A stretch of DNA of 22,819 nt, from positions 1 to 22,819 of IMG/VR virus record IMGVR_UViG_3300027969_000445. One strand, 5' to 3'. The translations under genes were made by a program, and so were the position numbers. Under the pieces are notes generated by a model that did not search any database, was not told the origin of the DNA, and saw only the letters and a list, made by a program, of their open reading frames with translations. Positions 20,345 through 22,546 of this stretch are shown in pieces (within the stretch, counting starts at the first letter, position 1; every line of letters starts with the position of its first letter). This DNA is from a virus.

Positions 20345-20557
20345 ATGGCATATAGCAGAAAGAACATATCCAATGCAGGAGACAGAGTTGTTCTGGAGCA
20401 AGCCGAGGCAAGGGAAATATACCGAACTTGGCAATCAAACAGAGATAACGATTTTGTGCGTGCCAGGCTTGAGCGTTGCGAAAAGATCTACGGATCTGGA
20501 GCAAGAGATCGAGTCAGGACCTATATGTCAAGAATGAAAGAAGGACAAATTGAATGA
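20345..20557 (+). CDS. DUF7696-like small phage protein
   Basis: The 70-residue protein is charged and helical, with AGDRVVLEQAEAREIYRTWQ, then DNDFVRARLERCEKIYGSGA and RVRTYMSRM. This resembles a small conserved phage family (DUF7696-like, from memory) of unknown role. The ribosome-binding site is weak. Its TGA at 20555-20557 overlaps ATG 20554 of the alternative frame and lies 3 bases after the TTG of the methyltransferase frame, so ribosomes arriving here can re-start in either frame. Confidence 0.6.
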   Translation: MAYSRKNISNAGDRVVLEQAEAREIYRTWQSNRDNDFVRARLERCEKIYGSGARDRVRTYMSRMKEGQIE

Positions 20558-21245
20558 GTTGGCATTATTTGCGGGGGGGGGGGGAGGAATCCTTGCAGGA
20601 CATTTGCTCGGGTGGAGAACTGTGTGTGCCGTTGAAATCGAAGATTACCCACGCAGAGTTTTATTGCAACGGCAAGCTGATGGACTCTTACCTAGATTCC
20701 CTATCTGGGATGACATCTGCACATTCGATGGGAATCCCTGGAGAGGAAAAATTGATGTTATCTCAGGTGGATTCCCTTGCCAAGATTTGTCAGCAGCAGG
20801 AAAAGGAAAAGGACTTGATGGAGAGCGATCAGGATTATGGCGAGAAATGGCACGGGTCATTTGCGAAGTACGACCCAGATACGCATTCATTGAGAACTCC
20901 CCAATGCTCACTATTCGAGGACTCGACAGAGTATTGTGCGATCTTGCCAAGATGGGGTTCGATGCGAACTGGGGAGTGCTGGGAGCAGACCTTGTTGGAG
21001 CAAAACATAAACGAGACAGAATATGGATTGTGGCCTACTCCAACAACACCAAGCGGAGGAGGAAACTGCGGGGGTTCTGGGGCTTACAAAAATGCAATCA
21101 AAAATGGGACTCATATTCCACATTCAATCAACCCGAACCTTTACGAATGGTTGATGGGGTGGCCCATCGGGTGGACAGACTTAAAGCCGCTGGCAATGGT
21201 CAGGTGGCCTTTTGTGCAGCCACAGCATGGGAACTCTTGAAATGA
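20550..21245 (+). CDS. dcm: DNA (cytosine-5) methyltransferase, short phage type
   Basis: This 231-residue enzyme methylates cytosine in phage DNA, probably to evade host restriction. Motif I is LFAGGGGGILAGHLLGW, motif IV is GGFPCQDLS with catalytic Cys77, motif VI is IENSP (E115), motif VIII is KHKRDRIWIV, and the C-terminal motif is RVDRLKAAGNGQV. The target-recognition region (about 163-200) is very short. The start is TTG at 20550 with AAGGA 4 bases upstream; family members usually read M-N-E-L-A-L-F-A-G, and here the first codon is TTG. A 12-G tract falls inside motif I. The whole gene is overlapped by another long frame. Its TGA overlaps the RusA ATG. Confidence 0.85.
   Translation: MNELALFAGGGGGILAGHLLGWRTVCAVEIEDYPRRVLLQRQADGLLPRFPIWDDICTFDGNPWRGKIDVISGGFPCQDLSAAGKGKGLDGERSGLWREMARVICEVRPRYAFIENSPMLTIRGLDRVLCDLAKMGFDANWGVLGADLVGAKHKRDRIWIVAYSNNTKRRRKLRGFWGLQKCNQKWDSYSTFNQPEPLRMVDGVAHRVDRLKAAGNGQVAFCAATAWELLK
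20554..21240 (+). CDS. Overlapping +1-frame protein inside dcm, unknown function
   Basis: The +1 frame is open for 228 residues across nearly the whole dcm gene. Its ATG overlaps the upstream stop (ATGA). It begins MSWHYLRGGGEES and ends with the block NPNLYEWLMGWPIGWTDLKP; the middle has HSLRTPQCSLFEDSTEYC, ILPRWGSMRTGECWEQ and EYGLWPTPTTPSGGG. I recall these blocks (S-W-x-T-x-Q-x-S-L-F, W-P-x-x-G-x-M-R-x-G-E, W-P-T-P, E-W-L-M-G-x-P-x-G-W-T) from phage proteins annotated as hypothetical or methyltransferase-like, so this is probably not a shadow. An internal start at ATG 20818 with an AAAAGGA site would give a 140-residue form covering the best-conserved part. Function unknown; a specificity partner for Dcm is one guess. 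Confidence 0.55.
   Translation: MSWHYLRGGGEESLQDICSGGELCVPLKSKITHAEFYCNGKLMDSYLDSLSGMTSAHSMGIPGEEKLMLSQVDSLAKICQQQEKEKDLMESDQDYGEKWHGSFAKYDPDTHSLRTPQCSLFEDSTEYCAILPRWGSMRTGECWEQTLLEQNINETEYGLWPTPTTPSGGGNCGGSGAYKNAIKNGTHIPHSINPNLYEWLMGWPIGWTDLKPLAMVRWPFVQPQHGNS
20573..20584 (+). repeat. Twelve-G homopolymer
   Basis: Twelve consecutive G bases lie 20-30 bases after the starts of both overlapping frames and encode the Gly run of Dcm motif I. The length keeps motif I in register with the family (FAG-x-GGG-IL), so it is consistent with an intact dcm. Tracts of this length are prone to replication, transcription or sequencing slippage. Confidence 0.9.
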
Positions 21246-21966: not shown

Positions 21967-22034
21967 CTGAAAAAACCTGCCCACCTTGTAATGGAAACTG
22001 CAACCAAGGACGTAATTGTCCTTCTAGAAAATGA
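21963..22034 (+). CDS. 23-residue Cys-rich peptide
   Basis: ATG overlaps the previous stop, and TGA overlaps the next ATG, so this tiny frame links the genes on either side. The four Cys form the pattern CPPC-x3-C-x5-C, followed by a basic end (PSRK). A small zinc knuckle is possible. I have the impression that Cys-rich peptides of the form C-N-Q-G-R-x-C are frequent in phage early regions. Its coupling at both ends is the main support. Confidence 0.55.
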   Translation: MTEKTCPPCNGNCNQGRNCPSRK

Positions 22035-22546
22035 AAACAGAACTTTTAATCGGTTGTGGATCTAACCACTCAAAAAGACTAGCAACAGATGGAACCAAAG
22101 GTTGGGATAACCTGACTACTTTGGACTACAACGCTACCCACAGACCTGATGTTGTGTGGGATTTAATGAAGCTTCCATTGCCATTTAAAGACAAAGAGTT
22201 TGACGAAATCCATGCTTACGAGGTGCTAGAGCATCTTGGACAACAGGGTGACTACAAACTATTCTTTGCTCAGTTCTCAGAGTTCTGGCGACTTCTCAAA
22301 CCAAATGGTCATTTCCTTGCGACTTGTCCATCAAGAAACTCAGTCTGGGCATGGGGTGATCCAAGCCATACAAGAATCATGCAACTAGAGCAGTTGGTGT
22401 TCTTATCCCAGGAAGAGTACAGGAAACAAGTTGGCAAAACTCCGATGTCAGACTTTAGGAATATTTACCACGCTGACTTTAGAGTTGTCTTCCAAGAGGA
22501 CGATGGAGAAACAATCCAGTTTGTGCTGCAAGCTATCAAGATTTGA
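22031..22546 (+). CDS. Class I SAM-dependent methyltransferase, substrate unknown
   Basis: This 171-residue protein has motif I LLIGCGSNH, an acidic residue after strand 2 (TLDYN), FDEIHAYEVLEHL as the motif around the active site, and LLKPNGHFLATCPSRNSVW as the conserved later strand. The layout matches type-11-like small methyltransferases. The C-terminal part (FRNIYHADFRVVFQ, QFVLQAI) completes the sheet. Targets could be a nucleic acid, a small molecule or a protein; nothing visible decides this. It starts by ATGA overlap with the 23-residue gene. Confidence 0.75.
   Translation: MKTELLIGCGSNHSKRLATDGTKGWDNLTTLDYNATHRPDVVWDLMKLPLPFKDKEFDEIHAYEVLEHLGQQGDYKLFFAQFSEFWRLLKPNGHFLATCPSRNSVWAWGDPSHTRIMQLEQLVFLSQEEYRKQVGKTPMSDFRNIYHADFRVVFQEDDGETIQFVLQAIKI

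Follow-up and report, generated by a model that had tools for sequence, protein, structure and literature searches.

Two nested reading frames of a phage gene very probably encode the catalytic and DNA-reading chains of one C5-cytosine methyltransferase

The building of a C5-cytosine methyltransferase from two polypeptides is a known principle. The small chain of M.EcoHK31I is read from a second frame within the gene of the large chain, and M.EaeI is an enzyme of the same kind. In M.EcoHK31I (YGGCCR), the larger of the two polypeptides contains motifs I-VIII and X and is predicted to contain the TRD, and the smaller one contains only motif IX (PMC3404938). The two polypeptides of M.AquI (CYCGRG) are split after motif VIII, into I-VIII and IX-X, the smaller one having part of the variable region (PMC3404938).

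The window analyzed here, a 22,819-base IMG/VR virus record, contains a 690-base stretch which, on our best reading of its sequence, is a variant of the M.EcoHK31I/M.AquI type. It very probably encodes a heterodimeric C5-cytosine methyltransferase, in which the frame-0 product (alpha) would be the catalytic chain and the +1 product (beta) the small DNA-reading domain. The features of the locus are as follows.

20550..20556, + strand: paired starts of the form xTGAATG, the TTG of alpha and, four bases later, the ATG of beta (codon fixation in relatives)
20550..21245, + strand: alpha, large (catalytic) domain of a C5-cytosine methyltransferase, 231 aa from a TTG start (Pfam, PHROG, NCBIfam)
20565-20594, + strand: alpha motif I
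20573..20584, + strand: G12 tract in motif I (sequence)
20766-20786, + strand: alpha motif IV (GGFPCQD)
about 20889-20903, + strand: alpha motif VI (ENSP)
21012-21035, + strand: alpha motif VIII (RDRIWIVA)
about 21174-21206, + strand: alpha motif X (RLKAAGNGQV)
20554..21240, + strand: beta, +1 frame, ATG start, 228 aa (phrog_1008 at 5e-18; open in 77 of 78 relatives; dN/dS; shuffle test)
20554..20835, + strand: beta leader, residues 1-94, the +1 reading of motifs I-IV; open, neutral, predicted unstructured
20836..21024, + strand: conserved beta module KWHGSFAKYDPDTHSLRTPQCSLFE..LPRWGSMRTGECWE, over alpha motifs VI-VIII (dNN/dNS and alignment)
21025..21129, + strand: variable region between motifs VIII and X (WPTPT..GGGN.. 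in +1), probable TRD in beta (dNN/dNS)
21127..21183, + strand: beta motif IX-like block INPNLYEWLMGWPIGWTDL, on the DNA just 5' of alpha motif X (position in relatives)

Both open reading frames are as the earlier note on this DNA gave them, the +1 frame being free of stops. The neighbors are phage genes, with a replication gene upstream, a RusA resolvase downstream and structural genes earlier in the window, and no restriction enzyme gene was recognized beside the alpha/beta gene. At positions 22031-22546 the window has another methyltransferase-like ORF (Pfam Methyltransf_11), unrelated to the first.

Analysis of the frame-0 protein revealed the C5-cytosine DNA methyltransferase motifs I, IV (PCQ), VI (EN[VS]), VIII (RxR) and X, in this order, with a match to Pfam PF00145 (1.9e-27) confined to profile positions 4-168 of 324. 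The alpha profile matched M.HhaI/M.HaeIII in the PDB over motifs I-VIII, and the AlphaFold model of alpha from a close relative has a fold matching both enzymes. Neither motif IX nor a TRD of normal size is present in the translation or in the PF00145 match, and only about 45 residues separate motif VIII from motif X. Monomeric members hold motif IX and the TRD in the same chain and the frame-0 protein does not, so that its earlier description as a complete Dcm stands for motifs I, IV, VI, VIII and X and falls on completeness. A related Dcm in the E. coli PCP07014 prophage (L357) is annotated as a pseudogene and has an internal stop.

The layout of relatives indicates where the remaining domain may lie. 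First, there are split forms such as L188 (Spirochaetia) and L223 (Paraburkholderia), whose frame 0 ends after motif VIII and whose +1 frame contains WPTP repeats, then NPxWVEWLMGWPxGW, then motif X (KAIGNGQVPQV). Overlapping actinophage pairs in which both genes are annotated as DNA methylase are split likewise (LoneWolf 85/84, Bumblebee11 75/74, Vagabond 6/5), and motif IX followed by X was found in the +1 frame of LoneWolf 85/84, Vagabond 6/5, phiBT1, L188 and L223. Secondly, in the one-frame relatives Estave1 gp75, Trax gp78 and Seagreen gp68, motifs I-VIII, an EWMMG[WF]PxGWV block and motif X all lie in the alpha frame; directly 5' of motif X stands FPEWMMGWPAGWVTEVPG in Estave1 and Seagreen, after LLPTP repeats that follow motif VIII, and EEWMMGFPPGWV in Trax. 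Since one-frame and split relatives alike have this block 5' of motif X, the +1 protein would correspond to the small domain, with the variable region and motif IX, and frame 0 to the large domain, a division coinciding with the boundary between the large and small domains of which C5-cytosine methyltransferases consist (PMC3404938). The beta block NPxxxEWLMGWPxGW is thus best read as occupying the motif IX position, an assignment made by position and by the one-frame relatives. Nested beta aligned with split beta in hhalign (E 2.7e-11), and the beta block did not align significantly with canonical motif IX (E 0.19).

A beta module of the YDPDTRSWK..SETWPKTGYMSDGRAYELP type is still open in the +1 frame of the one-frame Dcms of Estave1 (L346), Trax (L348) and Seagreen (L349), where it may be a relic or may still be translated. 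Canonical phage Dcms with an ordinary in-frame motif IX (RRLTPRECFRLQGFPD; L336, L337, L341, L342, L345) have 11-35 stops in the +1 frame. More divergent Dcms of Klebsiella phage BUCT541 (L343) and Erwinia phage vB_EhrS_59 (L344), one of them noted as similar to the Salmonella phage epsilon15 cytosine methylase, have +1 ORFs of 315-321 aa with an RWLMGFP/RWLMALP block.

When 84,980 genome species and IMG/VR were searched with the beta profile, matches came from many phyla. All 155 beta matches, from 80 genome and 80 viral loci, overlap Dcm in the same frame relation, and no free-standing beta was found among them or among the matches that 299 surveyed Pseudomonadota genomes gave; six of these genomes, one of them the seed genome, had beta matches, which overlap Dcm where both profiles match. 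The earlier placing of the +1 blocks in free-standing phage proteins was not borne out, every match being a +1 reading over Dcm, and the proposed search for the +1 protein without Dcm yielded nothing in the 155 matches. The Nostoc genome of L222 contains seven +1-type matches. Beta matches PHROG 1008 ('DNA methyltransferase'), which in L188 covers beta including motif X, as well as PHROG 26627 and 35493; these three families together with 27243 and 31772, labeled function unknown or 'DNA methyltransferase', match beta or the motif IX block. No family was found for beta in Pfam, NCBIfam or PADLOC, and the PDB search with its profile gave one sub-significant match only. The AlphaFold model of beta alone has a mean pLDDT of 49 (about 40 in the leader) and shows no more than one short helix, located at the EWLM block. 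In Paenibacillus phage Genki (LYCANUS1_56/57) the nested gene is already annotated as a second cytosine methyltransferase. Beta is conserved in many phages and bacterial genomes and almost never annotated.

A real overprinted protein with an independent role outside the methyltransferase, for instance as a host-restriction inhibitor or a regulator, would agree with the lack of a Pfam family and of a solved relative; this explanation is nevertheless quite improbable, given that beta is never seen away from Dcm, that frame 0 lacks motif IX and TRD, and that the one-frame relatives have the motif IX block in the alpha frame and the split forms have it 5' of motif X. Among the roles offered in the earlier note, the setting of sequence specificity fits best, and neither restriction inhibition nor an independent overprinted protein found support.

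The start codons of the two frames are closely linked. The ATG of beta overlaps the stop of the upstream ORF (20345-20557) as ATGA at 20554-20557, a coupling reported before and confirmed here. The alpha start is TTG in the window and ATG or GTG in most relatives. The beta ATG, at the equivalent of 20554, is present in all 53 loci found with the frame-0 query. Alpha codon 2 (Asn), which creates this ATG, is AAT in 52 of 52 cases, compared with 34% AAT among other Asn codons, and codon 3 (Glu) is GAG in 52 of 52, compared with 17% elsewhere. Even in relatives that have lost the frame-0 start (TTAAATGAG) and in which alpha begins a few codons upstream, the beta ATG is kept. The second, internal start proposed at 20818 is a real ATG but occurs in only about half of 78 relatives. 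The fixation of the beta ATG and its flanking codons therefore indicates that 20554 is the right start and that 20818 is not a conserved one.

Scans with either frame gathered 158 viral loci, 78 of which, non-identical and complete, were used for stop counts. The +1 frame is open along the gene in 77 of these, the sole exception (L079) having a stop at codon 60, and every one of them has 10-26 stops in the +2 frame. Homologues with stops throughout the +1 frame, which would have spoken against dual coding, were thus not found among these loci. After synonymous resampling of the window Dcm, the whole-length +1 frame was still open in 0.1% of trials, with 0.8% for the part from codon 89 on and 14% for the part before it. 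The open +1 frame in 20554-21240 is more than chance.

Substitution in both frames was compared, as had been suggested, by an OLGenie-like count on matched pairs with bootstrap intervals, the sequences being related to one another. Both frames are under selection. The +1 dN/dS was 0.51 (bootstrap 0.41-0.62) from codon 89 on, and dNN/dNS was 1.07 (0.72-1.59) for codons 2-88. The conserved module (20836..21024) gave 0.54 (0.41-0.70), and the variable region (21025..21129) 0.41 (0.20-0.67) in the +1 frame versus 0.86 (0.54-1.31) in frame 0. In 18 of 18 distant genome loci, including Thiobacillus, Spirochaetales, Akkermansia, Nostoc, Mycobacterium and an archaeal MAG, the real +1 profile score exceeded those of all 200 synonymous shuffles, which kept the Dcm protein and codon usage (z 6.4-10.1). 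The +1 frame is thus under purifying selection from about codon 89 on, the leader is neutral, and only the later part is selected as protein. The full-length dual coding proposed earlier is supported by conservation, codon choice and dN/dS, and the neutrality of the first 90 or so residues limits it.

It is extremely improbable that the +1 frame is open simply as a consequence of the Dcm amino acid sequence and codon bias, with no product made from it: the neutral first 88 codons would allow it, as would the first half of the frame, where only 2-5 independent lineages exist at third positions, but the +1 signal is lost in the shuffles of all 18 loci, dN/dS is below 1 from codon 89 on, canonical Dcms have many +1 stops, and the start of beta is fixed even where alpha starts elsewhere.

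The gene and its relatives contain homopolymer tracts. The motif I tract is G10, G11, G12 or G15 in relatives (L005, L012, L014, L020, L061, L121, L122), and several contigs end near it; these length differences may reflect phase variation or homopolymer assembly error. Out-of-frame G-tract lengths would redirect both start codons. A C10-C13 tract lies just after motif VIII in L003, L043, L044, L047, L052, L053 and L057, and any length other than C12 swaps the frames of the 3' half, yielding fusions of motifs I-VIII with TRD/IX in L047, L052 and L057 and of the beta N-terminal part with the alpha C-terminal part in L043 and L044. In the AlphaFold model of the L047 alpha-beta fusion, the catalytic domain is folded and the C-terminal part is not. 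It is conceivable, though unlikely, that the gene acts as a switch, in which slippage at G12, or at C10-C13 in relatives, re-pairs starts and frames and turns the enzyme on or off, some states fusing the catalytic and DNA-reading halves. Programmed frameshifting into a single polypeptide of frame-0 motifs I-VIII and the +1 TRD and motif IX, for which the homopolymer tracts and the natural fusions in the DNA of L047, L052 and L057 could be cited, is scarcely credible, as those fusions are without motif X and as such a product would need neither the conserved frame-0 motif X, nor the fixed beta ATG, nor the selected beta module over motifs VI-VIII.

In the two-polypeptide enzyme that we favor, frame 0 would supply alpha, whose motifs I-VIII and X would provide AdoMet binding, the catalytic PCQ, ENS and RxR. 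The +1 frame would be translated into beta, whose C-terminal ~135 residues would form the small domain (variable region/TRD and motif IX) reading the DNA major groove. Both chains would be made from one message with two starts four bases apart (xTGAATG), the beta ATG being coupled to the stop of the upstream gene, and would assemble into one enzyme methylating phage DNA. The neutral leader, which split forms lack, could be the price of starting at 20554. With the variable region constrained in the +1 frame but relaxed in frame 0, beta is probably the chain that sets specificity. Judging from the established roles of orphan phage methyltransferases, the most likely function of the enzyme is to shield phage DNA against restriction by the host. 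Against the assignment of beta to such an enzyme stand the hhalign E of 0.19, the missing Pfam and PDB matches, the low pLDDT of beta, the neutral leader and the L079 stop.

This assignment would give a function to a conserved frame missed by most annotations (PHROG 1008, 26627, 35493). Nested two-frame coding of the two domains of one enzyme would have a wide distribution, over phages, prophages and some genomes of bacteria and archaea, and would reach beyond a couple of restriction systems. If this is true, many orphan 'short Dcm' genes would be inactive when expressed in the laboratory without beta. As nested, split and one-frame forms exist side by side, it becomes directly testable how an overlapping gene arises and is resolved.

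Among described enzymes, the locus is likened by description to M.EcoHK31I: the large chain of the window also has motifs I-VIII and X, and a motif IX confined to the small chain is suggested by position, the profile comparison with canonical motif IX being non-significant (E 0.19). It differs in that the TRD of M.EcoHK31I is predicted in the large chain, whereas the variable region of the window is constrained in beta and its frame-0 version, of about 45 residues, is relaxed; moreover, beta has 228 residues, starts four bases after alpha and has no recognized restriction gene beside it. With M.AquI it shares the two polypeptides, the split after motif VIII and a smaller chain with variable region and, in the window by position, motif IX, but motif X is in the small subunit there and in alpha here; L188, L223 and several actinophages are AquI-like, with motif X in the small chain. 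M.HhaI and M.HaeIII have a catalytic domain like alpha in sequence and fold but hold TRD and motif IX in frame within a single chain. No description of phage two-frame Dcms was found in the open literature searched. The same two-frame alpha/beta layout exists as two GenBank genes in Paenibacillus phage Genki (LYCANUS1_56/57), LoneWolf 85/84, Bumblebee11 75/74, Vagabond 6/5 and KHumphrey 42/43, although in the actinophage pairs motif X belongs to beta, whose overlap with alpha is limited to the 3' part of the latter. The differences from the known types are thus the TRD constraint in the small chain, the paired starts and the wide spread of the layout; this spread, the paired start codons and the missing annotation seem to be little recognized.
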